Positions 33,478 through 63,615 of a stretch of 64,000 nt of DNA are shown here, in pieces. The number at the start of each line of letters is the position of its first letter. Within the stretch, counting starts at the first letter, position 1. The notes under the pieces were generated by a model that was not told where the DNA came from, did no database searches, and saw only the letters and a list, made by a program, of their open reading frames with translations. The DNA comes from Harmothoe impar (taxonomy: Eukaryota; Annelida; Polychaeta; Phyllodocida; Polynoidae): contig OX381709.1 in assembly GCA_947462335.1 (NCBI GenBank), positions 82,336,622 through 82,400,621 of the forward strand. Direction: 5' to 3'. The position numbers were made by a program, and so were the translations under genes.

Positions 33478-33535
33478 AGTAGTATAGTATGTATCGGAAC
33501 GGGACTATAGTTAAGTACTGTTTATTACTCAATCG

Positions 33536-33905
33536 ACCTGCAGCCAATCAGAGGCCTCCATTTGGTCACGTGACCGGAAGTGACCTACTTAGGGGATTAG
33601 TGGTGACGTCACGTGACCTAGTTAGCCAATCAGAGGCCGCCATTTGGTCACGTGACCGGAAGTGAGGTCATATGACCTACTTATGGACCGGAAGTGACGT
33701 CATATGACCTACTTAGGGGACCGGAAGTGAGGTCATATGACCTACTTTAGGATCACGTGACCGGAAGTGACCTGATGAGTCACGTGACCGGAAGTGACGT
33801 CACATGACCTAATGGCCAACCGGAAGTGAGTGACCTGATTGAGGATCACGTGACCGGAAGTGACCTGATTGATCACGTGACCGGAAGAAGAAGAAGAAGT
33901 GACGT
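33536..33905. promoter_or_regulatory. Array of CCAAT, E-box, ETS and CRE-like motifs (element A left)
   Basis: About nine copies of ACCGGAAGTGA, many extended to GACCGGAAGTGACGTCA and preceded by TCACGTG, plus two AGCCAATCAGAGGCC boxes near the tip. These match well-known binding sites: CCGGAAGT (ETS/GABP), TGACGTCA (CREB/ATF), CACGTG (USF/MYC class) and CCAAT (NF-Y). Spacing is irregular, 25-80 bp. The mirrored array is at 42,460-42,850. A regulatory role is inferred from motif identity and density only. Confidence 0.7.
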
Positions 33906-33976
33906 CACGCGACTTAATGAAGAGATGAGCGTCTTTAAGGGGTCACGCGCTTTAAAATGTGATATCTTTTTTTTTG

Positions 33977-34018
33977 GAGGAGGAGGAGGAGGAGGAGGAG
34001 GAGGAGGAGGAGGAGAAG
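33977..34018 (+). repeat. (GGA)n trinucleotide repeat
   Basis: About 14 GGA units after a T-run. The same repeat appears inverted in element B at about 63,080-63,124. ORFs of poly-Gly or poly-Pro across it are translations of the repeat. Confidence 0.95.
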
Positions 34019-34160
34019 GAGGCGAGTCTCTTATTTTTTTCGGTAAACTAATAAAAAACACTACGATATAAGTTTTTGTTTTTTTTTCATTTTTTATTGT
34101 TTTACGAGCGACTGGAAGTGACTTATTGAACTAGGTAGAAGCGTTCTTTAGAGTGTATAA

Positions 34161-34325
34161 AGGGGGGGGGGGGAGGGGAGGGGAGGGGAGGGAAGGGGAG
34201 GGGGGCCCCTTTAAGATGCATGGGGAGGGGGGCGCTTTTAGGATGTATGGGGCGAGTGGTGGGGGGGGGAGGGGGGGAGGGGGGAGGGGGGCACTCTAGG
34301 GGGGTGGGGGGGCACTCTAAGGGGC
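34161..34325 (+). repeat. G-rich tract with G-quadruplex potential
   Basis: Many runs of 4-9 G within about 165 bp, interspersed with GGGGAGGGGA and short CACTCTA spacers. It is present in inverse orientation in element B (about 62,790-62,940) and missing from the opposite ends of both elements. The ORFs across it (34,123-34,476 minus; 34,220-34,498 plus) are compositional artefacts. Confidence 0.8.
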
Positions 34326-34370
34326 GTTTGTCTCTTTTAAGAAAAAAAGAAAAGAAAAAGATTTCAATAG

Positions 34371-34412
34371 AGAGACACGCTTCTTCCTCTCGAGAGGAAG
34401 AAGCGTGTCTCT
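34371..34412. repeat. Perfect 42-bp palindrome
   Basis: AGAGACACGCTTCTTCCTCTC (34,371-34,391) is followed without spacer by its exact reverse complement, with an XhoI-type CTCGAG at the centre. Element B keeps the same palindrome with one mismatched pair at 62,690-62,731. Conservation in both elements points to a function, such as a replication or hairpin signal or a dimeric protein site. Confidence 0.9.
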
Positions 34413-34511
34413 TCGTTTTTTTTTGTTTATCACGTGCTTCGATGAGGCGATCAGCTGCGACTGGAGGAAGTGACACTTTAAGAGGGCGCGCGTCTTAATT
34501 GTTATGATATT

Positions 34512-34521
34512 TTTATTTATT
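34512..34521 (-). terminator. Poly(A) signal of the Death-domain gene
   Basis: Two overlapping AATAAA hexamers on the minus strand, about 55 nt past the stop codon at 34,574, in an A-rich stretch. Confidence 0.6.
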
Positions 34522-34573
34522 TTTTTTTTTTACTTACTAATAAAGAAGACGTATGAAAATAAAACACAACAAT

Positions 34574-35314
34574 TCACATGTCCGTCGTTCTCGTTGTTTC
34601 TTGCTTGATAAAGTCAAGTAATATCGCGATGCCGAGGTCAAACTTTCCCATGTCCTCAGTCAACACTCGAAGGAGTTCAAAAGGTGTACCGCCGGCACCG
34701 TCAGCTTCATCTTGCCACATTTTCAACACTCGGAAGGCCCACTCAGCGGGACTTCCTCCGTATTCGCATTCTTCAGCGATCTTATCTAACCTCTCAGGCG
34801 ACAATTTTAAATGGTCCCCCACCTCTTTCCACCTGCTACCTAGACGTCTGCCGAGGGTGCCCAAGTGCTTATGCATTGCGCGCGAGTCGGGGTTTTCGAA
34901 ATCCAACCCCTGTCTGTGGAGAAGGGACATCCACTGAGCCAACAGTTCCACGCGTCTAATGCGGGTGAAGACGCGACCGAGCTCTCCCCATCTATGACGA
35001 TGCGGGGTTTCACCCCACCAGACTCGGAACATCGCCGTACACAGCTCCTCCGGTGTCTTGACACTGCGCTCTACTAGAGCATCCATACGGGCGGCGGTAA
35101 CTTTTAAGCTACTGCCCAACTCTCTCCAACAGCCGCTCAACTCTTTACCTAGTTGACGAAGCAAAGCGTCGCTATAGGCTAACCGCCGCTGTCCTACCTC
35201 TCTGTTCTCCCCATCGGTCTGCCTCGCGCGTCTCACGTCGTCAAGCCGCATTAACTTTTTTTCAGGTGGACAAGGCGGTGAAGGCGAGCTTGAAAGTGGA
35301 ATAGCTTGAGCCAT
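34574..35314 (-). CDS. Tandem Death-domain protein (246 aa)
   Basis: An adaptor-like intracellular protein made almost entirely of two Death-fold segments. DD1 spans about residues 48-130, with W63 in CWRELGSSLKV and MFRVWWGE at 95-102. DD2 spans about 148-235, with W162 in RWKEVGDHLKLS, VLKMWQDE at 196-203 and LLRVLTEDMG at 214-223. The pattern of a Trp before a conserved L-x-L, a later L-x-x-W, and a final leucine-rich helix ending in an MG-type turn follows the Death domain family (Pfam Death). The N-terminal 45 residues are Pro/Ser-rich and basic. The start is the first ATG after a TATA box at 35,450-35,457 and has purine at -3 and G at +4. There is no signal peptide, membrane segment or catalytic domain. 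In animals such domains link death receptors, FADD/MyD88-type adaptors and kinases, so interference with host apoptosis or innate signalling is inferred. CARD- or DED-like assignment is a less likely alternative. Element B carries a homologous pair fused to another protein. Confidence 0.8.
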   Translation of the reverse strand: MAQAIPLSSSPSPPCPPEKKLMRLDDVRRARQTDGENREVGQRRLAYSDALLRQLGKELSGCWRELGSSLKVTAARMDALVERSVKTPEELCTAMFRVWWGETPHRHRWGELGRVFTRIRRVELLAQWMSLLHRQGLDFENPDSRAMHKHLGTLGRRLGSRWKEVGDHLKLSPERLDKIAEECEYGGSPAEWAFRVLKMWQDEADGAGGTPFELLRVLTEDMGKFDLGIAILLDFIKQETTRTTDM

Positions 35315-35329
35315 CTCGTCTCGTCTTGG

Positions 35330-35332
35330 CGG

Positions 35333-35386
<54 letters not shown>

Positions 35387-35395
35387 TGGTGGTAG
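35330..35395. repeat. (GGC)n repeat in the 5' UTR of the Death-domain gene
   Basis: Nearly uninterrupted GGC triplets with GGT variants, between the TATA box and the start codon. On the transcript this is a CCG-rich leader without an upstream ATG. A shorter version persists behind the orphan promoter in element B (about 62,521-62,570). Confidence 0.85.
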
Positions 35396-35449
35396 TAGAC
35401 GTTTCTGTGGTCAGAGGCGATATGGTTTTTTTCCAACAGAAATCAGAGC

Positions 35450-35457
35450 TTTTTATA
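35450..35457 (-). promoter_or_regulatory. TATA box of the Death-domain gene
   Basis: TATAAAAA on the minus strand, about 136 bp upstream of the start codon at 35,314, predicting transcription start near 35,425. The block CTGTATAAAAAGCTCTGATTT is conserved in element B at 62,456-62,476 although the gene behind it is gone there. Confidence 0.65.
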
Positions 35458-35519
35458 CAGAGGGAGTTTAATCCCATTTCCAACAGCACTCCAGCTGTGT
35501 AGCGACCTGTCCGCATAAC

Positions 35520-36330
35520 GCTTTTTCAACCGCTCCGCTCCTTAAGAGCTTAGATGACGAGGGGTGTGTCATCGCTATCCGTGGAGACCAGCTGAAAACG
35601 GTGTTTCTTCCTCATCCATAGCCTTACCTCCTACCCCCTACCTGAGGACGTCTCCCTCCCTCTGACATTCATTGTAACAAACGTCAGAGGTCAGGTGAAA
35701 ATCGGATTTTTTTCATGCACAGCCTTAGTCAGCTGTCACCCCTCCCTATTGAACTAGCCGGCCGCCGCCTGGCCGGCCCGGTCTACTCACCACGGCAGGA
35801 GGTGGTGATTTTTTTTTTGTCTTACACTTAAGTCGCTCACCACATGCACACGCCTCTACTCACAGACAGACATGTTCGTCTTAGGGGGGTCCTGCTTCAC
35901 GCCACACGCCTCCTGTAGTTTTTTTTGTATACACACTCTAAGCTCATCACCGTTAATCCTTTATACAGCTAACGCGCGCTGAATGGCTGAACAGGGTGGT
36001 AAGTGGCTTAGCTCATGACAGTGGACCCCTCAAAAAAAAAGAGGGGAAAGGGATCCAGCTGAAAACGTCATACCTTATGTCTTTGTGAATGGCCGCCGGT
36101 CAGTCGACGGCAGCAACCGCTTAATCCTTTATACAGCTAATGCGCGTTGAATTGCTGAACAGGGTGGTAAGCGGCTTAGCTCATGACAGTCGATCTCTCA
36201 AAAGGGGGGAAAGGGATCCAGCTGAAAACGTCATGCCTTATGTCTTTTGTTTCTCTTTGTGAACGGCCGCCGGCCAGCCGGCGGCAGCTGAACAGGGTCA
36301 GTAAGTAGCTTAGCTCTAGAAGCGAGAAGG
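35520..36330. promoter_or_regulatory. Divergent intergenic region with repeats of about 160 bp
   Basis: About 0.8 kb between two outward-facing genes with no ORF of note. It contains about 2.5 copies of a 160-bp unit (starting near 35,959, 36,123 and 36,285) carrying CTTTATACAGCTAA, GAACAGGGTGGTAAG, GGATCCAGCTGAAAACGTCA and GCCGCCGG motifs. The same non-coding architecture is conserved in element B (about 61,620-62,450). Its conservation next to decayed coding sequence in B suggests a role as bidirectional promoter, enhancer or replication region. Confidence 0.6.
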
Positions 36331-36332
36331 TG

Positions 36333-36340
36333 TATATAAG
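36333..36340 (+). promoter_or_regulatory. TATA box of the PC4-like gene
   Basis: TATATAAG 66 bp upstream of the chosen ATG (36,399). Transcription start is expected near the CATTCACTCACTC stretch at about 36,356-36,368. Conserved in element B at 61,599-61,606 (minus strand). An in-frame upstream start at 36,330 would lie across this box, so it was rejected. Confidence 0.75.
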
Positions 36341-36398
36341 GGGTCTGGAAACCTCCATTCACTCACTCATTCTTTTGCTGCTCTCTACAGTCACCACC

Positions 36399-37973
36399 AT
36401 GAGCAAAAGACAACACCTAGCGCCGTCCAAGAACAAGAAGACTACGCGGAACAGCGCTCGTTTAGCGTCAGTGCCTCCTCTTGCTACTGAAAATGAGACT
36501 ACCGCCGCAGCCGCTTGGTCTTATCACCCTCCCGCTGTAGCGAGCGCTCGCGGCAGTAGTAGTAGTAGTAGCAGTAGTAGTAGCAGTAGTAGTACTAGTA
36601 GTAGTAGTAGTAGTAGTAGTACTACTGGTAGTAGTCGTCGTGCTAGCGACGTTGTTACACTCGCGACGGTACACGTTGCTGCTAAGCGCGCTGCCGCTGC
36701 TACTGCCGCCCCGCCTGCTGCGGCTGCTGCTGCTGCTGCACCTGCTACCGCTGAGCCTGCTACTGCTGCGCCTGCTGAGGCTGCTGCGCCTGCTACTGTT
36801 GCGTCTGCTGCTGCTGCTGCTGCTGCTGCTTCTGCTGCACCTGCTGCTACCGCTACTACTACTGACGACAACGCTCCTGGCACAGCGCAGTACTGGCAAC
36901 CGGGTTTTTACCTCCCCACTACTGTTGATGACTTTGATGACCTGCCGCACGTTGCACAGCCCCTCTCCTCCACCACTACATCGACCGACGCCCTCGACGC
37001 CGCTCGCGCTGAGAGTGACAGCTATTCTGACACTCAGCCCCTAAACCGAGAAGAAGAGGAGGAGGAGGAGGAGCAGCAGCAACAGGGTGAGACAGAGAAC
37101 GACGCTGACGACGAGGCGTACGAACAACCCGAAGGGAAAGGGGTGGGCGGTACGTTTTTCGGCTTCCCTCTTCGACCTTTCGACCTCACTTCCTCCACTA
37201 GTAGCGTCCCGTCCGGTCCGTGGCGACTGCCCTCACCGCCACCTTACGAGGGCGGCGGCGCTTCATCTTCTACCGCTACACTCAGCACCGACGGCGTGTG
37301 GCTGCGCTGTTCCAACAACGAGGCCTCGGATACCACCAGCGCTGACGCTGCTCCTGCTATCGGTTCTGCTGCTGATTCAGCTCACGCTGATGGTGTTACT
37401 CATCCTGCGGGTGTGAAACGTTCTAAGGTGAGTTCCAGAACAACAAGGCCTAGTAAGAAGAGAAAAATACAAGAAAAAGAACGAGATGGACGAGAAGAAG
37501 CAGAGAAAACCTTCTCCCGTCTTCTCGGGTTAGAGTTCTGCTTAGACGGAGCTTTGACGCTGGAGATCTGGGAGGACGTGGCTAGACTGTCTAGGAGGCC
37601 GCGCTACACAAAAGACGGCCAGGTGAAAGAGGCGTCTCTGACCAGAAGCAAGCGAGTGCACTTCACGGCCGACGCGCTGCGCGAGCTAATAGCACGCATC
37701 GCCGATATCCGCGCAGTGGTGCGCATACGCGACACAGCGGCCGCGCAAGGAAAACCTAATCACACCCCCTGGTTCGCAGTGCTGGATGAGGAGGGCGAAG
37801 TGTACGCAGCTGTGAGCTACTACAGCGGTAAGAACCTCGTCCACGTGCGCAAGTACGAAGGTCCTGACAAAAAACCCACACAGCAGGGAGTGACGCTGTC
37901 CGCCAGAGCGCTCAAAGAGTTGGATGACAAAACAGAGATCATTCTGAAATATCTCGGCATAGATTCGGAATGA
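36399..37973 (+). CDS. Low-complexity protein with C-terminal PC4/p15-like domain (524 aa)
   Basis: Probable nuclear single-strand-DNA-binding or transcription/replication cofactor. The start has an excellent Kozak context (CACCACCATGAG). The order is a basic N-terminus, Ser tract (about 52-78), Ala-rich tract (about 94-154), acidic Glu/Gln run (about 218-232), a PPPY tetrapeptide (about 280), a basic nuclear-localisation-like cluster SKKRKIQ (about 350), then the folded part. Residues about 460-515 (AAVSYYSGKNLVHVRKYE, then QQGVTLSARALKEL) follow the PC4/p15 pattern of a Gly-Lys hairpin, an IRKY-like strand and a final helix. Residues about 375-440 (ALTLEIWEDV, then KRVHFTADALRELI) look like a degenerate second copy. 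There is no AATAAA in the short spacer before the polymerase gene. Element B has the same N-terminal half but a Death-domain C-terminus. The domain call is by eye. The triplet-repeat-rich reading frame is intact. Confidence 0.75.
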   Translation: MSKRQHLAPSKNKKTTRNSARLASVPPLATENETTAAAAWSYHPPAVASARGSSSSSSSSSSSSSTSSSSSSSSTTGSSRRASDVVTLATVHVAAKRAAAATAAPPAAAAAAAAPATAEPATAAPAEAAAPATVASAAAAAAAASAAPAATATTTDDNAPGTAQYWQPGFYLPTTVDDFDDLPHVAQPLSSTTTSTDALDAARAESDSYSDTQPLNREEEEEEEEQQQQGETENDADDEAYEQPEGKGVGGTFFGFPLRPFDLTSSTSSVPSGPWRLPSPPPYEGGGASSSTATLSTDGVWLRCSNNEASDTTSADAAPAIGSAADSAHADGVTHPAGVKRSKVSSRTTRPSKKRKIQEKERDGREEAEKTFSRLLGLEFCLDGALTLEIWEDVARLSRRPRYTKDGQVKEASLTRSKRVHFTADALRELIARIADIRAVVRIRDTAAAQGKPNHTPWFAVLDEEGEVYAAVSYYSGKNLVHVRKYEGPDKKPTQQGVTLSARALKELDDKTEIILKYLGIDSE

Positions 37974-37990
37974 GAGACGCTCAACGCTCA

Positions 37991-37992
37991 CG

Positions 37993-38023
<31 letters not shown>

Positions 38024-38130
38024 AGCGTTTGACGTACGCTGTATGAGACAGACAGACGGATACACAGACAGCAGACAGAAAGATAAATAGATAGATAGAT
38101 AGACAGATAGATTGATAGATAGATAGATAG
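37991..38130 (+). repeat. (CA)n and (GATA)n microsatellites between PC4-like and polymerase genes
   Basis: CG/CA dinucleotides (about 37,991-38,023) followed by ACAGACAG and GATA-type tetranucleotides up to 38,130, filling most of the 196-bp intergenic gap. No TATA box is evident for the downstream gene. Confidence 0.85.
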
Positions 38131-38169
38131 TTAGACGGCTAAGTAGTTGGTAACTGAGTGAAAAAAAAC

Positions 38170-41100
38170 ATGACACAGTACGTATGTGAAAAGTGTTTCA
38201 AAATGTTTAAAAGACCGTACAACCACGAGAGACACGTAGAAAATTGTAGAGTAGTACCTAAGTTTTGCCCTCTATGCGGCGAAGGCGATTGCCGAAAGAT
38301 CGCCTGTCGACGCGAATCTCTGGACGGAGTGACCGTCCCTCCGCGCATATGTGCTGTACCGAACGGGGAGGAAACGTTCACGGCGAATTGGCCTGCGATA
38401 CAAACGGGCGTCAGGATGCACGGGACTCGCGTGAGTGTAACAAACTTCAGGCTACCAACCGGCGAGTTGAGTGACGCTGTAGATACTATGCGTCGCATTC
38501 ACTTGACACAAAGATTCAAGATACAAAGTGGGTTTCTCGGTAGGCTTACTCTTACAACACAGAGAAGACAAGAGCAAACTGCGCTACTTTCACGCCTCCC
38601 AGAACAACGCAACTCTCATACAACCGCTCCCTACTATAACTAATTCAGAAACTTTGGAAGAGCTCCTCTCAAAGATGGAAAACACCGTCGCTTGCGAGGA
38701 AGTACGGAAACTTTGCGACGCTGACACCAAGTGGCACGTTCTTTTTCCTACCAATTTGAACATTTGCGTTTACATGGGACCGGGGGAATTCCCCATAGGC
38801 GGTAGGATCACTCAGGCCGGTCGAGTTGGAAAGAGAAGCGGCGTGTTAGATTTTCCCAACAAGGACAACCTCTGCATCTTCCGCTGCATTTCCTTTCACT
38901 TATACAACACCAGCAAGCGCGCTTCAGATTTGTTACGTCAGTTCTGTCCCGCTGCCACACCTGAATCCTTTCCGGGTCTGAACATCCGCGACTTACCCGC
39001 GTTAGAGAACTTGTTTGACGTACAGATAGCGGTTTACACCGCGTCGCGTCAAGTGCCGGGGCGGAAGTTGAGAAGACGCGTTACTCTGATCAGACCGCCT
39101 TCCAGAACTCTGGCTGCCCGAGGTAAAGTCAACCTACAACTGACGGCGAAAGGCGGTTTGCACGTCTCTCTCGTCACGGACTTCAACGCGTACGCGGGCA
39201 TATACGAATGTTGCAAGTGTAAGGCGGCGTTCACCACCGAGTTCTTGCTGAAGAGACACAGGAACCAGCTTTCCTCTTGCCGACAAGTCAAGTTGCGCTA
39301 CGTAGGTGGCATCTACCAAAATTCGAGAACGATTTTCGAAGCGCTAGCAGACTTCTCCATTTTTCCCCCCGACGGACATTCCGGAATCTACCCTTACAAG
39401 GTCGCCTTCGATTTCGAGGCTTTCTTCAGACCGTGCAAAGAACCGTCGACGGAACACGTGTCCCTGCTGTGGGATCACGTCCCTTTGTCGGCTAGCGTCG
39501 CATCCGACTTTCCGGGGTGGGAGGGGCCCGTCTGCTTCGTCAGAGAATCCGACGCAGATTCCGACCCCTTGTTGGACCGAGTTTTAAATCACATAAACGA
39601 GAACGCCAAAGTCATCGGGGAAGCTGTGCTAGAACTTTACCGACCGACCTTAGCGAAGTTAGATGCGGCGATAGGTGAAGCTCTCCTGCTGGAGGAGGCA
39701 ACGCTCACCCCTTCTCCAGGCGGCTTCGCTGCGGCTCAGACCAGACACCCGTTAGTTCAACTGAAGAAGCGTCTTCTGAGATACATCCGGCAAGCTCCAG
39801 TCGTGGGCTTCAACTCGGGGCGTTACGACTTGAACCTGATCAAAATACGCCTTCACTCGTTCTTCGCCTCCGGAGACCGAAGAAACCAAGAATTCAGCGT
39901 CATAAAGAGAAGCAATCAATACTTGGCGGTTTACACACAGCACACGGTTTTCTTGGACGTAGTCAACTATTTGGCACCCGGTTACAACTACGCGACCTAT
40001 TTGCGAGCTTTCACCAGGAACGAAGAGAAAGGTCACTTTCCTTACGAATGGATGACGTCTACCAGGATACTGGCAAACAGAACGCTGCCACCGAGATCGG
40101 CTTTCGACAGCGAGCTGACGGGCGTCAAAATGTCCGAATCCGACTACGCCGCATGTCAGAAAGTTTGGTCCGACGAGAAGATGCAAACTATGGAAGACTA
40201 CTTGATCCACTACAACAACAAAGACGTCAAACCTTTCATAGAAGCTCTGAAAAATCACGCTAAATTTTTCCAAGATCGCGGCATTGACATGTTGAAAGAC
40301 GGAGTTTCTCTCGCCGGTTTGACTTTACGGTTCCTCTTCCAAAACCTAGAAGACGCGTTCACAACGTTCCCCCAGTTCGACGCCGTCCTCCACGCTCTGA
40401 TCAAAGAAAATCTAGTCGGCGGTCCTTCCATCATCTTCCATAGATTTCACGAGAAGGGCACCACGCGGATAAGGGAGCACAAGTACGGCGAAGAAGCGAG
40501 ACCGTGCCAACACATCCTAGGACTAGACGCTAACTCTCTGTACTTGCGCTGCATGAGCGAAGCGCACTGCACGGGCTATTACGCGGTGAGACAGCCCGAG
40601 ACCGAGTTCAAGCCCGAAATTAGGCAAAGAAACTCTCACAGCGCTTTGGAGTGGTTACGCTTCGTAGAGCACGACCGCGACGTGAAACTGCGCCACGCTT
40701 TGAACGACGGCAAGATGGTTGTAGGCTGTCGGAGAATTCGCGTGGACGGGTTTCACGCGGCCTCTAATACGGTTTTCCAGTTTCACGGGTGTTGGTTCCA
40801 CGCTCACGAGTGCATACCGTCGCACCGATATCAGTGCGCTTCACTGAGAGAGGAGAGACGCGACAGAACGACCAGAGTAAGCGCTTACTTGAAAGCGCTA
40901 GGTCACAAGCTGGTCGTCGTGTGGGAGTGCGAATGGCGAGAGATGAAGCGTCGAGATGAGCGGGTCAAGGCCTCCCAACAACGCTGGAAGGTTGACGCTT
41001 TGAAAGTGTCTCGAAACGCGATGAGCGAGAGCGACATCCTTTCCGCTGTGAAAGAGGAGAAAATGTTCGGTTTAGTTCAAGTGGACATCACTACGCCGCC

Positions 41101-42280
41101 TCACCTACGAGACTACTTCGAAGAAATGACCCCCGTTTTCAAGAACGCGACCGTTTCAAAATCGGACATAGGACCTCACATGTCAGACTTTGCGCAGGAA
41201 GAAAAGCTGTTGAACACGCCTCAGAGATGTCTGATAGGGAGTTACCACGGAAAAAATATTCTCTTGGGAACGCCGCTTCTCAAGTGGTATTTAGAGCACG
41301 GTTTGATAGTCACCAAAGTGCAGCTGGTGGTAGAATACCTACCTAAACGCTCCTTTGCCGGTTTCGCGGACGAAGTAACGGCGGCGCGAAGACGTGGCGA
41401 CGTGAACGAGAACGAGAAAATTCTGTCAGACTGTTACAAGTTAATGGGAAACGCTACGTACGGTAAAACAATCTGCAACAAAGAAAAACACACGGCGGTG
41501 AGATACACTGACAGTCGGAGGTTCGAACTATTGGCCAATTCGTGGCGCTTCAAAAAGGCGTCCGAGTTGAGTTCCGATCTGTTTGAAGTCGAACTACAAC
41601 CGAAAACAGTCAACAACAACCTCCCTATTCAAATAGGGTTCATGGTATACCAGTACGCGAAGTTGAAAATGTTAGAGTTCACATACGACTTCTTGGATAG
41701 ATTCGTCGATCGGCGCGATTATGCCCTTTGTCAAATGGACACCGACAGTCTTTACATGGCTCTCAGCGGTGACACGTTGGATGACCTAGTCAAACCTCGC
41801 CTGAGAGAGACGTACTTCAGAGAGAAACGAAAGTGGCTTCCGACAGCGGTGTGCGACGATCACTTAGAGCTTTTCGTGAAGACAAAAACGGAAAGAGTGC
41901 GAGAATGGTGTCCGCCGCCCGGCGGATGTTGTGAGAGACGGTACCTTCACGATCTGAGAACTTCGGGGCTTATGAAAGCGGAGTGGGAAGGTGACGGGAT
42001 CCTAAGTCTCATTTGCTACGATCGAGTCAGCGACACCGGTGAAAGAAAATCCAAAAAATGGAGTGCAAAAGGCGTACAGAAGAAACAAAACCCTCAGGAA
42101 CCAGACGACTTCTTGGATGTTCTTCGCCAACGAAAAACTCTCATTGCTGTAAATAGAAACTTCAAAGTGGTGCGAAACAAAATGGTCACCTACACCATAG
42201 AGAAAGACGGCGTGCGCTACTTGTATTATAAGCGTCGCGTGCATTCTGACGGTGTGACAACGAGTCCTTTAGAGATATGA
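38170..42280 (+). CDS. polB: Family B DNA polymerase of the protein-primed (DNA_pol_B_2) type, two-exon model
   Basis: Replicative DNA polymerase expected to copy the element. In order: a C2HC/C2H2-like zinc finger (CEKCFKMF...HERHVENC, about 38,190-38,250), an OTU-like or uncharacterised NLCIFRCISFHLY segment (about 38,868), a second zinc finger (ECCKCKAAF, about 39,206), Exo I (FDFEAF, about 39,406), Exo II (GFNSGRYDLN, about 39,805), Exo III (YLIHYNNKD, about 40,199), motif A (GLDANSLYL, about 40,520), a Vsr-like nuclease segment (FHGCWFHAHEC to VVVWECEW, about 40,779-40,935), motif B (KLMGNATYGK, about 41,438) and motif C (QMDTDSLYM, about 41,731). The catalytic aspartates of motifs A and C and the exonuclease acids are present. 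The frame shifts between the N-terminal ORF (ends 38,643) and the main ORF. The preferred explanation is a short intron, 38,540-38,648 or 38,528-38,648, giving a product of about 1,330 residues. No separate terminal protein was recognised. Confidence 0.88.
38540..38648 (+). other. Candidate short intron in the polymerase gene
   Basis: The N-terminal ORF and the main ORF are in different frames. An intron ending at the AG of ACTAATTCAG (38,648), with a branch-like ATAACTAAT just upstream, restores frame if it starts at GTAGGC (38,540; 109 nt) or GTGGGT (38,528; 121 nt). Element B has the same frame discontinuity and the same acceptor, and differs by a 1-nt indel within the interval, as expected for non-coding sequence. 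Its counterpart of GTGGGT reads GCGAGT, which favours the 38,540 donor. Programmed frameshifting or an ancestral frameshift remain possible. Confidence 0.55.
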
Positions 42281-42350
42281 AAAAAAAAAAAAATAAGCGT
42301 GTGCATCTTTTCAAAAATAGAGTGTTTATCAAGATTGAAAAAAAAAAAAA

Positions 42351-42368
42351 AATAAAAAATAAAATAAA
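42351..42368 (+). terminator. Poly(A) signals of the polymerase gene
   Basis: AATAAA hexamers at 42,351 and 42,363 in an A-rich run 70-90 nt after the stop codon. They sit at the inner edge of the right inverted repeat, just before GTTGTGTTTTTATTTTCATA. Confidence 0.65.
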
Positions 42369-42371
42369 ATA

Positions 42372-42910
42372 TTGTTGTGTTTTTATTTTCATACGTCTTC
42401 TTTTACTAGTAAGTCGCGCAGTCTCTTAAAGCGTCACTCATGTGACGACGTCGCTTCCAGTCACGTGATCCTAAAGACCCTCACTTCCTAAACAAAAAAC
42501 TTCTTCTTCCGCTCACGTGATCAATCAAGTCACTTCCGGTCACGTGATCCTCAATGAGGTCACTCACTTCCGGTCGGCCATTAGGTCATGTGACGTCACT
42601 TCCGCTCACGTGACTCATCAGGTCACTTCCGGTCACGTGATCCTAAATTAAGTCATATGACGTCACTTCCGGTCCCCTAAGTAGGTCAGTAGGTTACCCA
42701 GAATGCACCACTAATCCCCTAAGTAGGTCACTTCCGGTCACGTGACCAAATGGTGGCCTCTGATTGGCTGCAGGGTTACCCAGAATGCACCACTAATCCC
42801 CTAAGTAGGTCACTTCCGGTCACGTGACCAAATGGAGGCCTCTGATTGGCTGCATGTCGATTGAGTAATAAACAGTACTTAACTATAGTCCCGTTCCGAT
42901 ACATACTACT
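42372..42910 (-). repeat. Element A right terminal inverted repeat
   Basis: Inverse of the left end with the G-rich and palindrome block missing. It ends CCGTTCCGATACATACTACT. It includes AATGCACCACTAATCCCC direct repeats (about 42,703 and 42,785) and inverse copies of the ETS/CRE/E-box array at 42,460-42,850. Confidence 0.88.
42460..42850. promoter_or_regulatory. Array of E-box/ETS/CRE-like motifs (element A right)
   Basis: At least six CACTTCCGGT sites plus near matches, most followed by CACGTGA. GACGTCA sites and two CTGATTGGCTGCA (inverse CCAAT) boxes lie toward the tip. It mirrors the array at 33,536-33,905. Confidence 0.7.
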
Positions 42911-51310: not shown

Positions 51311-51334
51311 GTTGATTAATATTAATTTTATAAT

Positions 51335-51695: not shown

Positions 51696-51714
51696 AATAT
51701 AAATCAACCTTTGA

Positions 51715-54553: not shown

Positions 54554-55195
54554 AGTAGTATAGTATGTATCGGAACGGGACAATAGTTAACTACTGTTTA
54601 TTACTCAATCGACCTGCAGCCAATCAGAAGCCTCCATTTGACCGGAAGTGACGTCACATGCCCATATAAGGGCATACCGGAAGTGACGTCACGTGACCTT
54701 GACCTAGTTAGAGGTCAAGGTCATGACGCAGCCAATCAGAGGCTTCCATTTGACCGGAAGTGACGTCACACGTCCATATAAGGGCATACCGGAAGTGACG
54801 TCATGCGACCTTCACATGTCCATATAAGGGCATACCGGAAGTGACGTCACGTGACCTTGACTTAGTAAGAGGCTTCTGATTGGCTGGTACACCGGAAGTG
54901 ACCCATTATGCAAATGAGGGGACTACTTCCGGTCAAATGGAGACCCCTGATTGGTTGGGTCATGAAGAAATATGTCTCTTAATTTTTTTTTGTTTAGGAA
55001 GTGATCGACTTAGGATCACGTGACCGGAAGTGACCTGATGAGTCACGTGACTAGAAGTGACGACGACACATGCTTTAATTAGGCGATCAGCAGCGACTGG
55101 AGGAAGTGTCACTTTAAGAGGACACGCTAGTTAATTGTTATAATTTTTTTACTTACTAATAAAAGAAGACGTATGAAAATAAAACACAACAATAA
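54554..55195 (+). repeat. Element B left terminal inverted repeat with ETS/CRE and CArG-like motifs
   Basis: Corresponds to the right end of element A. It has about eight CCGGAAGT sites, mostly within ACCGGAAGTGACGTCA. Specific to this end are three copies of CCATATAAGG (54,662, 54,774, 54,820), a perfect CArG box of the SRF type (CC-A/T6-GG) that could also serve as a TATA element, and direct repeats of GGGCATACCGGAAGTGACG. Confidence 0.8.
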
Positions 55196-55288
55196 TTTTA
55201 TTTATTTTTTTATTTTCTTTTTTTCAATTCTAATAAACACGCTATTTTTGAATAGATGCGCTCAATCAATCAATAACACACTTTTTTT

Positions 55289-55804
55289 TCATATTTTTAA
55301 AGGACTTGTTGTCACACCGTTAGAATGCACGCGACGCTTATAATACAAGTAGCGCACGTCATCTTTCTCTATGGTGTAAGTGTCCATTTTTGGTTCGTAC
55401 CACTTTGAAATTTTTATTTACCGCAAGGAGAGTTTTTCGTTTGCGAAAACATCTAAGATGACGACTGGTTCTTTAGGGTTTTGTTACTTCTGTACACTTT
55501 TTGCACGCCATCTCTTTTTTTGGGATTTTCTTTCACTGGTGCTGCTGACTCGATCGTAGCAAATGTAAGTCTTAGGGTTGAGACTTAGGATCCCGTCACC
55601 TTCCCACGCCGTTTACATAAGCTCTGAAGTTCTCAGATCGTGAAGGTAACGTCTCTCACAACATCCGCCGGGCGGCGGACACCATTTTCGCACTTTTTTC
55701 CGTTTTATCTTCACGAAAAGCTCTAAGTGATCGTCACACACCGATGTCGGAATCTGCTTTCGTTTCTTTCTGAAGTATGTCTCTCTCAGGCGAGGTTTGA
55801 CTAC
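55289..55804 (-). pseudogene. polB: Polymerase C-terminal remnant
   Basis: Reverse-strand homologue of element A 41,790-42,280 (PPPGGCCERRYLHDLRTS is shared). The natural stop is at 55,289. A nonsense codon at about 55,613 replaces the Lys codon of A, and further frame breaks follow toward the C-terminus. Homology stops abruptly at about 55,804, before motif C is reached. Confidence 0.88.
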
Positions 55805-55842
55805 ACAGAGGCAAATATCAGAGGCACCCAATAGCGCTAATT

Positions 55843-56169
55843 CTACTCTCAGACAAGGGTCAGGCACTGCTGGACTATAATAGATGGGTCAAGGGCTATT
55901 CTAGTGAGGGTCAGGCTACGCCTGACATTCAATAACAAGCTGGACTTTGGCAAACTTGCTTGAAAGTCTGACCATGCGGGATCCTCATGCCATAGTCTGG
56001 CAATGCTGAACTCTTGGGAGAGTATGCTGGACTCTTGCTGACCAGACTTTCAAGCAAATTTGCCAAAGTCCAGCTTGTTATTGAATGTCCGGCGTAGCCT
56101 GACCCTCAGTAGAATAGTCCTTGACCCATCTATTATAGTCCAGCAGCGCCTGACCCTTGTATGAGAGTA
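55843..56169. mobile_element. Inverted-repeat element (about 327 bp, arms of about 130 bp)
   Basis: CTACTCTCAGACAAGGGTCA at the left is mirrored by TGACCCTTGTATGAGAGTAG at the right, and the similarity runs about 130 bp inward (GGACTTTGGCAAACTTGC and its inverse). The centre is about 65 bp with GCTGGACTCTTGCTG. Similar GAGAGTCCAG sequence occurs in host DNA at about 21,070-21,190, so this is probably a host-resident MITE that entered element B. Confidence 0.8.
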
Positions 56170-56471
56170 GTATTGGCGACATTTACCCGTGTGTACGGTG
56201 GGAGGAGGGGGTTCACAGCCACAGCTTGCGCTTATAGAGCGCTACTAGCGGAGGTCTGGATGAGGAGACTACGGCGATTGTCTTAAAAAAAAATAGCCAT
56301 GGCACATGTCGATGTCGCTTAATTATGCTCATATCTCATGGCGATTTTAAGAATTGCTCATGTCACCTGTCACTATGTTTTTCAAGCTTCATGTCAAATG
56401 TCACTAGGTCTCATGTCGAATGTCGATGCTAAGAAACAGACATGACGTCATCTCGAATTTAGCGGTCTACA

Positions 56472-56825
56472 CTACCGCTGCTGCTGCTGCTGCTGCTTGT
56501 GCAGCTCGTGCAGCTGTTGCAGCTGCTGACAGCTGCAGCTGCTGTAGTTGCTGACGCTGTCACGGATGCTGTTGACAGATGCTGCTGCTTGTGCTGCGCG
56601 TGCAGCCGCTGCTGCGGCTGCTGACGTTGTCACGGATTCTGCTGACAGATGCTACTGCTTGGGCTGCTTGCGCTGCTCGTGCAGCTGCTGCAGCTGCTGA
56701 CGATGTCACGGATACTGTTGACAGATGTGGCTGCTTGTGCTGCTTGTGCAGCTGCTGCTGCTGCTGACGATGTCACGGATGCTGCTGACAGATGCTGCTG
56801 CTTGTGCTGCACGAGACTGAGTAGC
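56472..56825. repeat. Degenerate tandem repeat of about 80-95 bp built from GCT/GCA triplets
   Basis: Units contain GACAGATGCTGCTGCTTGTG, GCAGCTGCTGCAGCTGCTGAC and GATGTCACGGAT(A/G)CTG, repeated about four times. It may once have coded an Ala-rich tract like those in the neighbouring genes, but the frames are interrupted. The small ORFs here are not supported. Confidence 0.75.
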
Positions 56826-56871
56826 CGCTATTACTAATGCTACTAATACTAGTATGAGAAAATACATTTAG

Positions 56872-57723
56872 TCAGTTGATTAAATCAAGGAGGTTTTCTG
56901 ACTTCAGTGGATCGTTTAGCCATCGGCCACGGGCAAAACTTGAAACCATTTTATACATGGGACAATTGGCAGAGTCGAAACGTGTTGGTACGATGGGGTC
57001 GATCATGTTCATCATCAGTTCAGGCAAAGGAAGTGTGTCGACAGCACGCGAAAACTTCATGTCTGAATGTTTCAACACAAGACTTTTTATCACACTCACA
57101 CAGCTGCTTTGAAGAGTGAATCCTTGACCAAACTTGTGCTTTTCCAACACAGCTTTGGCCTCTTTCTGTGCAGTAAGGGATCTCTCTTTCGGGTTCATCT
57201 CAGTGCTGTCTAGCATGTCCTCAAAGTCTTTAACATAATGTTCCAACGGGCTACAAATGATGGACTCCACATCATCGTCTGCATATGTCGTCTCCTCGCA
57301 CCATATTGTGTCTTCGTCTGTTTCGAATTCCGTCATTTTCTTGACAATCTCCTCCTGAGTGCCTTGCATATATCGAAGCTCCTTCAAGGAGTTGATAACT
57401 TGTATGGCGAAGACTGACAAACTTGAAGGAATTTCACCACAGTCAGGCCAAGTATACGGAGCTAAGAAAAATAGCTCTAACAAAATCTTCTCCCTCTGTC
57501 CAAATGAAACTACTGTTCCGATGAAGTTGAAGCATGCTTCTATCCATTGCTCCTTGGTGACGTCCTTCCAATGTTTCTTTACCTCACATGCATCATAGGG
57601 CACTGTTTCTCTTCTTGCTTCAAGTGGGAGTTGCTTTTTCTTTCTTGGACTCATTTCGAGAGGGTTTCGATGCTCTGTAGCGTCAACACTTTCATAAATA
57701 AAGAAAATAGCAGAACTAACCAT
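56872..57723 (-). CDS. Unrecognised 283-aa protein (cargo of element B)
   Basis: Intact ORF that I do not recognise. The N-terminus is MVSSAIFFIYESVDA, with a second possible start MSPRKKKQLP about 23 codons in. The body is soluble-looking and predominantly helical in composition: an aromatic-rich segment around residues 55-95 (HWKDVTKEQWIEACFNF, LLELFFLAPYTWPDC), a strongly acidic middle (about 135-180, EFETDEDTIWCEETTYADDD), and a mixed C-terminus with FARGRWLNDPL near 265. There is no transmembrane segment, zinc-binding cluster or catalytic motif that I can name. Upstream on the same strand are GTACATAAGGAGTG (about 57,806-57,819) and GAGAAGGAGTGTATAGG (about 57,994-58,010), the latter resembling the GAGAAGGAGTATATAAGG promoter of the fusion gene. 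No AATAAA follows. It occupies the gap left by the lost polymerase palm. It may be a captured host gene or a less common gene of this element family. Confidence 0.6.
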   Translation of the reverse strand: MVSSAIFFIYESVDATEHRNPLEMSPRKKKQLPLEARRETVPYDACEVKKHWKDVTKEQWIEACFNFIGTVVSFGQREKILLELFFLAPYTWPDCGEIPSSLSVFAIQVINSLKELRYMQGTQEEIVKKMTEFETDEDTIWCEETTYADDDVESIICSPLEHYVKDFEDMLDSTEMNPKERSLTAQKEAKAVLEKHKFGQGFTLQSSCVSVIKSLVLKHSDMKFSRAVDTLPLPELMMNMIDPIVPTRFDSANCPMYKMVSSFARGRWLNDPLKSENLLDLIN

Positions 57724-58010
57724 CGTAACGTGCTGAGCGAGTGTAGAGTGGACGATGCTACGAAGATGAAGGGCGGGTGGAGAAAGTGTGACTGGTGAGA
57801 GCGGCGTTTCACTCCTTATGTACCCTGTCCTAGATAAGCCTCTTAAACGGCTGAAAAGACTCTCTCAGTACAGAGCTTCTACCGCAGGTGGGTTTAGACT
57901 TAAGCAGCTTAGTTCACACACGTGTCTGTTAGAAAAGCTACTTGCACACCGGCCTTCCCTTTTCACTAGTATTCACCCTCTGCCGACTTATAAGACACCT
58001 ATACACTCCT

Positions 58011-59895
58011 TCTCGTGAAATCTATGGAAGATGATGGAAGGACCACCGACTAGATTTTCTTTGATCAGAGCGTGGAGGACGGCGTCGAAGGGAGGGAGCG
58101 TTGTGAACACAGCTTATAGGTTTTGGAAGAGGACCTGTAAAGTCAAACTGGCGAGAGAGATCTCGTCTTTCAACATGACAATGCTGCGATCTTGGAAAAA
58201 ATTAGCGTGATTTTTTCAAAAGCTTAATGAAAAGTTTGACGTCTTCGTTGTTGTAGTGGATCAAGTAATCTCTCATAGTTTGCATCTTCTTGTCGTACTA
58301 AACTTTCTGACATGTGGCGTAGTCGGATTTCGGCCATTTTGACGCCCGTCAGTTCGCTGTCAAAAGCCGATCTCGGTGGCAGGGTTCTGTTTACCAGTTT
58401 CTTGGTATACGTCATCCATTCGTAAGGAAAGCGACTTTTCTCTTCGTTTCTGGTGAAAGCTCACAAATAATTCGCGTAGCTGTAACCAAGTGCCAAATAG
58501 TTGACTACTATGTCCAAGAAAACTATGTGTAAACCGTCAAGTATTGATTGCTTCTCTTTATGACGCTGAATTGTTGGTTTCTTCGGTCTCCGGAGGCAAA
58601 GAACGAGTGAAGGCGTATTTTTGATCAGGTTCAAGTCGTAACGCTCCGTGTTGAAGCTCACGACTGGAGCTTGACGGATGTATCTCAGAAGCTGCTTCTT
58701 CAGTTGAACTAACGGTTGTCTAGTGTGAGCTGCAGCGAAGCCGCCTGGAGAAGGGGTGAATGTCGCTTCTTCTAGCAGGAGAGCTTCACCTATCGCCACA
58801 TGTAACTTCGCTAACGTTGGTCGGTAAAGTTCTAGCACAGCTTTCTCGATGACTTTGGCGTTCTCGTTTATGTGATTTTAAACTCGGTCTAACAAGGGGT
58901 CGGAATCTGCGTCGGATTCTCTGAGGTACACCGTCCCCTCTTACCCCGGAAAGTCGGATGTGACGCTAGCCGACAAAGGGACGTGATCCCACAGCAGGGA
59001 CACGTGTTCAGTCGACGGTTCTCTGCACGGTCTGAAGAAAGCCTCGAAATCGAAGGTAATGTTGTAAGGGTAGATTCTGGAATGTCCGTCGGGAGGAAAA
59101 GTTTCACGTGTGGCAGCGGGACAGAACTGACGTAACAAATTTGAAGCGCGCTTGCTGGTGTTGTATAAGTGAAAGGAAATGTGGCGGAAGACGCAGAGGT
59201 TGTCCTTGTTGGGAAAATCTAACACAAGGCTTCTGTTTCCAACTCGACCGTCCTGCCTGTTCCTACCGCCTATGGGAAAACCTCCAGGTCCCATGTAAAC
59301 GCAAATGTTCAAAATTAGTAGGAAAAAGAGCGCACCGCTTGGTGTCAGCGTCGCAAAGTTTCCGTACTTCTTCGCAAGCGACGGTGTTTTCCATCTTTGA
59401 GAGGAGCTCTTCCAAAGTTTCTGAATTAGTTATAGTAGGGAGCGGTTGTAATGAGAGTTGCGTTGTTCTGGGAGACGTGAAAGTAGCGCAGTATGTTCTT
59501 GTCTTCTCTGTGTTGTAACAGTAAGCCTACCGAGAAACTCGCTTTTTATCATTGTGTGAAGCGGATTGCGACGCATAGTATCTACAGCGTCACTCAACTC
59601 GCCGGTTGGTAGTTTGACGTTTGTTACACTCACGCGAGTCCCGTGCATCCTGACACTTGTTCGTATTGCAGGCCAATTCGCCGTGAACGTTTCCTCACCG
59701 TTCGGTACAGCGCATGTACGTGGAGGGATAGTCACCTCGTCCAGAGATTCGCGTCGACAGGTGATCTTTTCAGCAATCGACATCGCCGCATAGAGAGCAA
59801 AACTTAGGTATTGTTCTTCATTTTTCTACGGGTCACTCGTGATTGTACGGTCTTTTAAAAATTTTGAAACACTTTTCGCAAACGTCCTGCGTCAT
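58011..59895 (-). pseudogene. polB: Polymerase N-terminal and exonuclease remnant
   Basis: Homologous to element A 38,170-40,456 on the reverse strand, from the first zinc finger (ATG at 59,895) through Exo I (FDFEAFF, about 59,040), Exo II (SFNTERYDLN) and the LIKENLVGGPS stretch. Defects relative to A are a nonsense codon inside the first zinc finger (about 59,834), an in-frame loss of about 400 bp joining the OTU-like segment directly to the Exo I lead-in (removing the second zinc finger), and several frameshifts between 58,400 and 58,900. Homology ends at about 58,011. The intron-like frame change seen in A is also present at about 59,410-59,535. Confidence 0.9.
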
Positions 59896-60064
59896 GTTTT
59901 TCTTTTTTTTTGTTTTTTCACTTATTTACCAATTATTAAAAAAAATAAAACATTATTTATCACTTCGAATACTAGACACCTCTTACCACACGATACTATT
60001 AGCATTGTGAAAGGTGACTGTAGTCTAGGATCGAATTCAACAGATGACCATCTTACTGCAGGGA

Positions 60065-61213
60065 TCAGACAAGAGTGGTCAACACTGGAGTGTCACAGCT
60101 CACTTTTATGTCTTTGGGTACAGCTGCATACAACCCTTGAACATACATTGCGACGTCGCTGCGACCCATGTCGTCTTGCAACACTTTCATCAGAGCCATA
60201 GGCTCAGACGTCTCGTTGTACTTCCAAGCTCTCAGCACTTCATAGACAGGGTTCTTCACAGTCCTGTCAGAAGGCACAGGTTGAGAGATGAAAGCTATTT
60301 CATGAGAAGTCAACCCTAAGTAGATCCCTATGGTCTTCCAGTCTCTAGAGCAGAGCTCAGCTAAAAGAGAGAAATATTTCTGCACTTTCCACTCCATGTC
60401 TCCACTCTCTAAGCCATCCCACATGTCATGTTTGTCCATGTACTCACGTGAGAATTTGATGAGGTCCATACGGTAAGATTCTTCCAAGGCGGCGGCTAGG
60501 TCCTTCCACTTAGTAGTACAACTTTTCTGGTACCAAGTAGTGAACATTTCTCTAGCTTGAGTTATGACACTTGTCTCACAACTGAGATATCCCATATCCT
60601 TCAAGTTCACTTCAAGGTATGAACCTAACCGTATGTAATCTGATGTCGGCAACTTACTACTTATTTTCAGTAGCATAGCGTCTGACAAGTATCCTAACGG
60701 CTCTGCTTTGAAGTATGATGATACAGGTACTACTGCAGCACAACCAATAACAGGAGCAGCGTCTGCGCTGGTATCCGACGACTCGTTGTCGGAACAGGGC
60801 AACCACACGACTTCGTAAGGTATTGGTGAGGGCAGTCGCCACGGACCGGACGCGCTACCAGTGGAAATGAGGTCGAAAAACGGACTGTGCGCCTCGTCGT
60901 CAGCGTCATTCTCTGTCTCACCCTGTTGCTTTAGGGCATGTATGTCTACTACGCGCTGCTGGGGCTGAGTGTCCAAATAGCTGTAAGTCTCAGCGCGAGC
61001 GGCGTTGATGGCGTCGGTTGATGTAGCGGTGGAGAGGTTCTGTGCAACGTGCTGCGTGTCAGTACTAGTAGCGGCAGTCGCAGCAAGAGGTGTAGCAGCA
61101 GCAGCAGCAGCAGGTGCAGCAGTAGCAGGCGCAGCAGTAGCAGGCACAGCAGCAGCAGGCGCAGCAGTCTCAGCAGGCGCAGCAGTAGCAGGCGCAGCAG
61201 TAGCAGGCGCAGC

Positions 61214-61244
<31 letters not shown>

Positions 61245-61540
61245 CGAAGATCACCAGCAGCCGCAGCAGGCGCAGCAGTAGCAGCAGCAGCAGCGTGCTT
61301 AGCAGTAACAACCGTCGCGAGTGTAACAACGTCGCTACCACGACGACTACTACTACCACTACTACTGCTGCGTGCGCTCGCTACAGCGGGAGGGTGATAA
61401 GACCAAGCGGTTGCGGCGGTAGTCTCAATTTCTGTAGCAAGAGGAGACGCTGACGCTAAACGATCACCGTTCTGCGTACTCTTCTTGTTCTTGAACTCGA
61501 TTAGATCCTTGGACGACACTAGTTGTTGTGTTTTGCTCAT
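60065..61540 (-). CDS. Ala-rich N-terminus fused to tandem Death domains (491 aa)
   Basis: The N-terminal third is the same protein as the PC4-like gene of element A (shared start context CACCACCATGAG and shared ATAWSYHPPAVASAR, then Ser and Ala tracts, GETENDADDEA and SGPWRLPSP), but the C-terminal part is different. DD1 spans about residues 288-365 (YIRLGSYLEVNLKDMGYLS, REMFTTWYQK, WKDLAAALEE). DD2 spans about 388-475 (CSRDWKTIGIYLGLTSHEI, VYEVLRAWKYN, LMKVLQDDMGRSD). The spacing and the DMG-x-x-D ending parallel the stand-alone 246-residue protein of element A. There is no PC4 domain. Transcription should start from the TATA at 61,599-61,606. The ORF is intact although the neighbouring polymerase is ruined. 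Role inferred: modulation of host Death-domain signalling. Confidence 0.8.
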
Positions 61541-61598
61541 GGTGGTGACTGTAGAGAGCAGCAAAAGACTGAGTGAGTGAATGAGTGTTTCCAGCCCC

Positions 61599-61606
61599 CT
61601 TATATA
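61599..61606 (-). promoter_or_regulatory. TATA box of the fusion gene
   Basis: TATATAAG on the minus strand within GAGAAGGAGTATATAAGGGG, 59 bp upstream of the start codon. Homologous to 36,333-36,340 in element A. Confidence 0.75.
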
Positions 61607-61619
61607 CTCCTTCTCGCTT

Positions 61620-62450
61620 CTAGAGCTAAGCTACTTACAGCTCTGTTCAGCTGCCGCCGGCTGACCAGCGGCCATTCACAAAGAGAAACAAAAAGACTTA
61701 AGGTATGACGTTTTCAGCTGGATCCCTTTCCCCCTCCCCTTTGAGAGATCGACTGACATGAGCTAAGCTACTTACTGCCTTGTTCAGCAATTCAACGTGC
61801 GTTAGCTGTATAAAGGATTAAGCAGTTGCTGCCGCCGGCTGACCGGCGGACATTCACAAAGAGAAACAAAAGACATAAGTCATGACGTTTTCAGCTGGAT
61901 CTCTTTCCCCCCTTTTTTGAGAGATCGACTGCCATGAGCGGGCGGTGTACCGACTGTGCTAATTCAACGCGCATTAGCTGTATAAAGGATCAAGCAGTCA
62001 TGAGCTTAGAGTGTGTATACAAAAAAACTACAGGAGGCGTGTGGTGTGAAGCAGGACCCCCTAAGACGGGTGTGTCTGTCTGTGAGTAGAGTCGTGTGCA
62101 TGTGGTGAGCGACTTAAGTGTAAAACAAAAAAATCACCGCCTCCTGCCGTGGTGAGTAGACTGGCCGGCGGCGGCTGGCTAGTTCAATAGGGGTGACAGC
62201 TGACTAAGGCTGTGCATGAAAATCTGATTTTCACCTGACCTCTGACGTTTGTTACAATGAATGCCAAAGGGGGAGAGAGTCGTCCTCAGGTAGGGGGTAG
62301 GAGGTAAAGCTATGGATAAGGAAAAAACACCATTTTCAGCTGGCTTCCACAGATGGTGATGACATACCCCTCGTCATCTAAGCTCTTAAGAAGCTCTTAA
62401 GGAGCGGAGCAGCTGCTAGACAGCTGAGGTGCTGTTGGAAATAGGATTAA
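61620..62450. promoter_or_regulatory. Conserved divergent intergenic region of element B
   Basis: Inverse counterpart of 35,520-36,330, with repeated GTTTTCAGCTGGATC and ATTCACAAAGAGAAACAAA, GCCGCCGGCTGACC and TGTATAAAGGAT blocks. No ORF. Better preserved between elements than the polymerase gene. Confidence 0.6.
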
Positions 62451-62460
62451 ACTCCCTCTG

Positions 62461-62468
62461 TATAAAAA
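62461..62468 (+). promoter_or_regulatory. Orphan TATA box and leader of the lost Death-domain gene
   Basis: TATAAAAA within CTGTATAAAAAGCTCTGATTT, identical to the element A promoter, followed by an ACC/GCC-rich leader (62,521-62,570). The leader runs straight into GTCACAGCTGATCGCCTCAT of the terminal repeat. The coding sequence found at 34,574-35,314 in A is absent. Confidence 0.75.
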
Positions 62469-62574
62469 GCTCTGATTTCTGTTAGAAAAAAACCATATCA
62501 ACTCTGACCACAGTAACGTATACTACCACCACCACCAGCACCACCGCCGCCGCTACTGCTGCCGCCGCCAGTCA

Positions 62575-63615
62575 CAGCTGATCGCCTCATTAAAGCATGT
62601 GACGTCGTCACTTCTAGTCACATGCTTCATCAAGTCGCTTCCAGTCGCGTGATCTTAAAGACCCTCACTTCCTAAACAAACAAAAACGAAGAGACGCGCT
62701 TCTTCCTCTCGAGAGGAAGAAGCGTGTCTCTCGATTGAAATCTTTTTCTTTTCTTTTTTTCTTAAAAGAGACAAACGCCCCTTAGAGTGCCCCCCCACCC
62801 CCCTAGAGTGCCCCCCTCCCCCCTCCCCCCCTCCCCCCCCACCACTCGCCCCATGCATCCTAAAAGCGCCCCCCTCCCCATGCATCTTAAAGGGGCCCCC
62901 CTCCCCTTCCCTCCCCTCCCCTCCCCTCCCCCCCCCCCCTTTATACACTCTAAAGAACGCTTCTACCTAGTTCAATAAGTCACTTCCAGTCGCTCGTAAA
63001 ACAATAAAAAATGAAAAAAAAACAACAAACTTATATCGTAGTGTTTTTTATTAGTTTACCGAAAAAAATAAGAGACTCGCCTCCTTCTCCTCCTCCTCCT
63101 CCTCCTCCTCCTCCTCCTCCTCCAAAAAAAAAAAAGATATCACATTTTAAAGCGCGTGACCCCTTAAAGACGCTCATCTCTTCATTAAGTCGCGTGACGT
63201 CACTTCTTCTTCTTCTTCTTCCGGTCACGTGATCAATCAGGTCACTTCCGGTCACGTGATCCTCAATCAGGTCACTCACTTCCGGTTGGCCATTAGGTCA
63301 TGTGACGTCACTTCCGGTCACGTGACTCATCAGGTCACTTCCGGTCACGTGATCCTAAAGTAGGTCACTTCCGGTCCCCTAAGTAGGTCATATGACGTCA
63401 CTTCCGGTCCATAAGTAGGTCATATGACCTCACTTCCGGTCACGTGACCAAATGGCGGCCTCTGATTGGCTAACTAGGTCACGTGACCTCACCACTAATC
63501 CCCTAAGTAGGTCACTTCCGGTCACGTGACCAAATGGAGGCCTCGGAGGCTGCAGGTCGATTGAGTAATAAACAGTACTTAACTATAGTCCCGTTCCGAT
63601 ACATACAATACTACT
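62575..63615 (-). repeat. Element B right terminal inverted repeat
   Basis: Matches the left end of element A over its whole length: palindrome (62,690-62,731, one mismatched pair), C-rich tract (about 62,790-62,940), (CCT)n (about 63,080-63,124), ETS/CRE/E-box array (63,215-63,540) with about nine CACTTCCGGT sites, and terminal CCGATACATACAATACTACT. Confidence 0.9.

Follow-up and report, generated by a model that had tools for sequence, protein, structure and literature searches.

Fusion of an Ala-rich gene with a tandem Death-domain gene in a small Maverick-type element of Harmothoe impar

In the window, that is the whole 64,000-nucleotide stretch of DNA analysed here, one of two Maverick-ended elements (element B) carries an open reading frame in which the Ala-rich N-terminus of an element protein continues in frame into a pair of Death domains. 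The junction is directly visible in the DNA of B, while the event behind it would be the joining of two genes by deletion or recombination, which suffices to explain the exchange. On balance, we favour an explanation in which both elements are mini-Mavericks with a tandem-Death accessory gene, and in which the fusion in B arose by such gene joining and is young and weakly constrained. The features on which this is based are collected in Table 1.

Table 1. Elements A and B and their parts (positions of the window)
Feature	Positions	Strand	Remarks
Element A	33478..42910	+	9,433 bp, Maverick-ended, AGTAGT...ACTACT, TSD GAGACA
Stand-alone tandem Death gene of A	34574..35314	-	246 aa; Pfam Death in two stretches, 31.1 bits
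Ala-rich protein of A with C-terminal PC4-like domain	36399..37973	+	PC4 21.9 bits
Maverick-type PolB gene of A	38170..42280	+	frame broken near 5' end; long ORF from 38528
Element B	54554..63615	- (reversed)	9,062 bp, Maverick-ended, AGTAGT...ACTACT, TSD CAGAAT
Polymerase of B, 3' part	55289..55803	-	decayed; stops, frameshifts
Insert in polymerase of B	55804..58007	.	2.2 kb replacing 1.3 kb of polymerase; contains 283-aa ORF
Polymerase of B, 5' and middle part	58008..59904	-	decayed; stops, frameshifts
Fusion ORF	60065..61540	-	ATG start, 491 codons, open
Fusion residues 270-491	60068..60733	-	tandem Death domains, 94% identical to stand-alone P0125
Fusion residues 1-269	60734..61540	-	homologous to Ala-rich N-terminus of A's PC4-like protein
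TATATAAG box and leader to CACCATG	61541..61650	-	common to A's Ala-rich/PC4-like gene (alignment)
Upstream region of the lost left-hand Death gene	62430..62569	+	kept without the gene
Right end of B	62625..63615	-	97.4% identical to A's left end

The 6-bp duplications that flank A and B are perfect. When the two flanks were compared over 961 shifted positions, 6-mers agreed 1 and 2 times, the real duplications counted in. Both the end motif and the length of the duplication match those of vertebrate Mavericks, as reported in PMC8097293. Additionally, each element carries a gene for a Maverick-type DNA polymerase (PolB; in A matched by DNA_pol_B_2 of Pfam), which is broken in both and badly decayed in B. 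A relative of this polymerase (36% identity in tblastn) is encoded in L001, an 11.8-kb contig, where it adjoins an rve/chromo integrase, an A32/IVa2-like ATPase and an adenain-like protease. The polymerase search found 386 proteins; the 120 of them that were listed include family members named from lancelets, gastropods and a sea urchin. The Maverick genes of L001 (1-11769) and of a second contig, L002 (1-3607), come from the MAG of a tubeworm's bacterial symbiont and are probably contamination from the host.

The genes that accompany the polymerase in L001 served as queries for their counterparts. No match to the rve integrase was obtained across the window at E 1 (with this single query), and the ATPase and the protease had no match inside A or B. 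Of the nine other L001 ORFs compared with the window at E 1, the protease ORF alone had a match, which had E 0.64 and lay neither in A nor in B. Capsid genes had no match in A or B either; this is a weak test because Pfam named no capsid gene in L001, so that its capsid ORFs were guessed from size and order. Distant versions of the ATPase, protease or capsid genes could escape a search of this kind. In IMG/VR, no relatives were found with the polymerase, the polymerase alignment, both Death types, the Death alignment or the PC4-like protein as the query. A and B are thus small, polymerase-bearing Maverick/Polinton derivatives with no recognisable integrase, ATPase or protease, and for this reason they were probably integrated by the integrase of a full Maverick.

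The earlier note on this DNA had described element B as an Ala-rich N-terminus fused to tandem Death domains, and the description holds. Pfam recognises Death in two stretches, with 47.7 bits for the whole ORF and 51.3 bits for residues 268-491 (cut-off 22.6), and the N-terminal part is homologous to A. The alignment of A and B that the note had proposed locates the exchange point. At the DNA level the homology ends at A 37372 / B 60735 and restarts at A 38161 / B 59904; at the protein level the exchange falls after Ala269 of the fusion, which corresponds to codon 7 of the stand-alone Death gene. The protein nearest to B's Death part, P0125 (228 aa, encoded on a 9,818-bp contig), begins with MADFNL followed by VVPVSS, and the fusion has an identical VVPVSS directly after Ala269, which places the junction at that codon. 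The promoter of the fusion, the TATA box of the Ala-rich gene, and its start are intact in B. A deletion or an inter-element recombination in B would have joined codon 269 of the Ala-rich/PC4-type gene in frame to codon 7 of a Death gene of the B type; the PC4 half would thereby have been lost and the Death domains placed under the promoter of the Ala-rich gene.

Element A was said to carry an Ala-rich/PC4 protein and a separate Death gene. The separate gene is present, but it is itself tandem, and the PC4 profile stays under the Pfam cut-off of 25 bits, so that we name the domain PC4-like only. This domain had no PDB match at E 1. As for the claim that B has no PC4 domain, it is sound at the DNA level, where the window holds nothing else that matches A's PC4 half at E 1e-3; the comparison of proteins gives a single weak match, in B at 59631-59762 (E 0.24).

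At E 1e-3, no other DNA of the window matches the coding sequence of A's Death gene either. Its protein matches the fusion distantly but genuinely (blastp E 6e-10), and the Death parts of A and B are collinear tandem proteins with 23-26% identity. A profile of both parts matched 14 database proteins, 10 of the B type and 4 of the A type; the relatives of A's gene are P0124, P0126, P0130 and P0137. All 14 stand alone, with 126-247 aa and no Ala-rich part, in a search that was unable to return proteins of 491 aa and in which scoring was confined to the 8000 candidates with most words in common. When the Death region of the fusion was the query, no hit at E 0.01 emerged from 532 candidates, and at this limited sensitivity no second fusion appeared among proteins between about 270 and 859 aa long. 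Because the stand-alone form is the usual one among the relatives found, the fusion looks derived. In nine of the ten B-type proteins a Met-Ala start stands shortly before the shared Death region, and the remaining one, P0127, starts inside it.

In the tree, the fusion and P0125 group together (98/99) within the B-type proteins, and the A-type proteins form a separate clade (100/100); P0137 was found but omitted from the underlying alignment A3. When P0125 is aligned with seven relatives of the B type that share 45-71% identity with it, 58 columns are invariant, and seven of these eight proteins measure 225-228 aa. The Death gene therefore looks conserved in the family, at the protein level only. 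Judged by their sequences, the A-type and B-type proteins appear to be two old lineages of one accessory gene of about 225-250 aa. Thus, of the module swap proposed earlier, the exchange itself is real and the PC4 half was replaced, but the Death part belongs to the other lineage. A relocation of the A-type gene into B is rejected on the low identity and the separate clades. Capture of a single-Death host gene by B is not favoured, as both types are collinear tandem proteins. A B-type Death gene may truly have been relocated from the left-hand place.

That place is empty in B, as had been claimed. The segment of A that holds its Death gene is missing from B, where it would lie between 62569 and 62625. 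The block upstream of the gene (A 35349-36398) is retained in B with 89% identity, in agreement with the orphan promoter that the earlier note had ascribed to B. In general, the identity of B to A is uneven. It reaches 97.4% over the right 990 bp, 84% in the N-terminal part of the ORF and 90-91% in the polymerase blocks, and the left end of B is more diverged, with 61-80% in most 100-column windows. The outer ends at 33478-34470 (A) and 62625-63615 (B) are about 97% identical, other aligned blocks 84-91%. Recombination or conversion between inverted copies is a likely source of these near-identical ends. Since the loss of the left-hand Death gene sits at the divergence boundary, an exchange of this kind between the ends is suggested for it as well; the gene would have been lost at the edge of the 990-bp block.

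The polymerase gene of A is 98% identical to P0004. In B, the segments A 38974-39360 and A 40458-41786 have no counterpart in the polymerase, and the 2,377 aligned bases hold 10 in-place stops and 11 non-triplet indels, at least one of which is A's own because P0004 is open there. The contrast drawn earlier between a decaying polymerase and an open frame of 491 codons beside it is therefore confirmed, at 10 stops and about 10 frameshifts.

Several other features of this region were recorded. An intact ORF of 283 aa (56872-57723, minus strand) lies inside the broken polymerase of B; it had no Pfam match and a single PDB match at E 0.42. The segment that replaces part of the polymerase also contains a palindrome of about 344 nt (55835-56178, 85% self-complementary), near which lies a CTG-rich tandem repeat (about 56470-56810). 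Between A and B, at 50257-53228, there are two mutually inverted arrays of a 146-bp satellite.

How long the fusion has existed bears on how its open frame should be read. Over a decay time equal to that of the polymerase, it should have collected 11.9 disablements, and the probability of an open frame would be 7e-6 (6.5 disablements and P = 0.0015 for the Death part). If it formed in the last quarter of the polymerase decay, this probability rises to 0.20 (Death part) and 0.05 (entire ORF). The branch of the fusion's Death part is five times longer than that of P0125 (0.054 vs 0.011). Private changes stand at 9:2 with P0128 as the outgroup (exact p = 0.065) and at 7:1, 7:2, 4:3, 4:3 and 4:3 with five others, the three more distant outgroups reducing the excess to 4 vs 3. 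The Death part differs from P0125 at 12 of 222 residues, and 3 of the 12 lie at sites invariant in the other relatives, which, in small numbers, is what chance alone would give (56 of 222). The corresponding share was 0-10% in nine control pairs, which overlap one another, and Fisher tests of the fusion against them gave p from 0.003 to 0.33, below 0.05 in two of the nine; the invariant-site test omits the first two residues of the Death alignment and columns with few rows.

Because of this long branch, the changes at invariant sites and a probability of staying open that rises with youth, we hold the fusion to be probably young and weakly constrained. A young, relaxed fusion fits somewhat better than a selected gene. 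The selection for the Death product that had been read from the open frame is thus not established: the small distance to P0125 permits a young fusion, and the changes look relaxed, small as their number is.

Youth could also have come about in another way. A less probable but serious possibility is that an already dead element B received the fusion block at a late stage from an active sister, through recombination or gene conversion, and that the frame is open simply because the block is recent. The mosaic structure of B, with a right end much closer to A than the other aligned blocks and a left end farther away, would agree with this, as would the probabilities given for the last quarter of the decay. 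Likewise, the distance to P0125 would be a fraction of the neutral distance of the polymerase if the Death part is neutral. However, divergence from A in the blocks on either side of the fusion is about that of the polymerase (0.12 upstream; polymerase dS 0.15), so that no young block boundary is visible there.

It is rather unlikely that the fusion is a selected gene, in which an Ala-rich/Death protein useful to the element or the host was retained after the replication gene was lost. The frame is open next to about 20 polymerase disablements, the promoter and start are conserved, and all 11 A/B indels in the N-terminal part have lengths divisible by three, compared with 10 of 36 elsewhere (p = 2e-5); several of these 11 fall in trinucleotide repeats (judged by eye) and may be older than the fusion. 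Purifying selection would follow from the small number of replacements if the split from P0125 dated back as far as the polymerase decay. However, omega of the N-terminal part is 0.74 (0.52-1.08) in the protein alignment, 0.89 (0.64-1.33) in the DNA alignment and 1.03 (0.69-1.67) once Ala-Ala columns are left out, compared with 0.52 (0.40-0.68) for the polymerase, and no clear constraint is seen in it. The Death branch and the chance share of invariant-site changes also speak against selection, and the fusion is seen in one copy only.

An assembly chimera of two element copies, which the earlier note had raised against its own proposal, is highly improbable: the window does hold similar copies (84-97% in aligned blocks) at a short distance from each other, but the identical 6-bp duplications that flank B argue that its two ends belong to one insertion, the junction is in frame, and the 12 differences from P0125 mean that the Death part is not a collapsed copy of that gene.

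Among the papers listed in searches of the open-licence literature, none dealt with Death domains in Polintons/Mavericks, and the words 'death' and 'PC4' are absent from the main text of PMC11071296 in the part available. Among natural proteins of solved structure, the family profile is nearest to RIPK1 and FADD. The single-sequence structure prediction for the Death part had a low confidence (pLDDT 39), and the better Death model gave 38 Foldseek matches in the PDB at E 10 and none at E 0.001. Death domains bind other Death domains, an established behaviour of the fold. With two of them and no other recognised domain, the stand-alone protein would act by such binding, and its architecture suggests a decoy or adaptor that blocks or diverts host cell-death or immune signalling. 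In the fusion, the Death module sits behind a long low-complexity segment, and its localisation and valency would be expected to change. We regard it as doubtful that an integrase-less mini-Maverick family turns this protein on host signalling and that the fusion gene of B outlives the replication machinery. Maverick-ended elements with a tandem Death adaptor and no recognisable integrase would tie DNA transposons directly to host cell-death signalling. The fusion as such illustrates the mixing of modules in these elements, and the B locus allows a test of whether a transposon Death gene is retained after the death of its element.

Compared with known systems, A and B share with Mavericks/Polintons the (AGT)2//(ACT)2 ends, the 6-bp TSD, the terminal inverted repeats and a PolB of the family found with integrase, ATPase and protease in L001. 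They differ in their size of 9.1-9.4 kb, in the unrecognised integrase, ATPase and protease, and in the additional Ala-rich/PC4-like and tandem Death genes. Unlike the Death-domain adaptors represented by PDB chains (FADD, the Death domain of RIPK1), the element protein combines two Death domains, lacks a kinase or DED part and is the product of a mobile element. Viral death-fold decoys such as vFLIPs also consist of tandem death-fold (DED) domains with no catalytic part and are parasite-borne. The element protein has Death instead of DED domains, and it would resemble the vFLIPs in the architecture predicted from its sequence.
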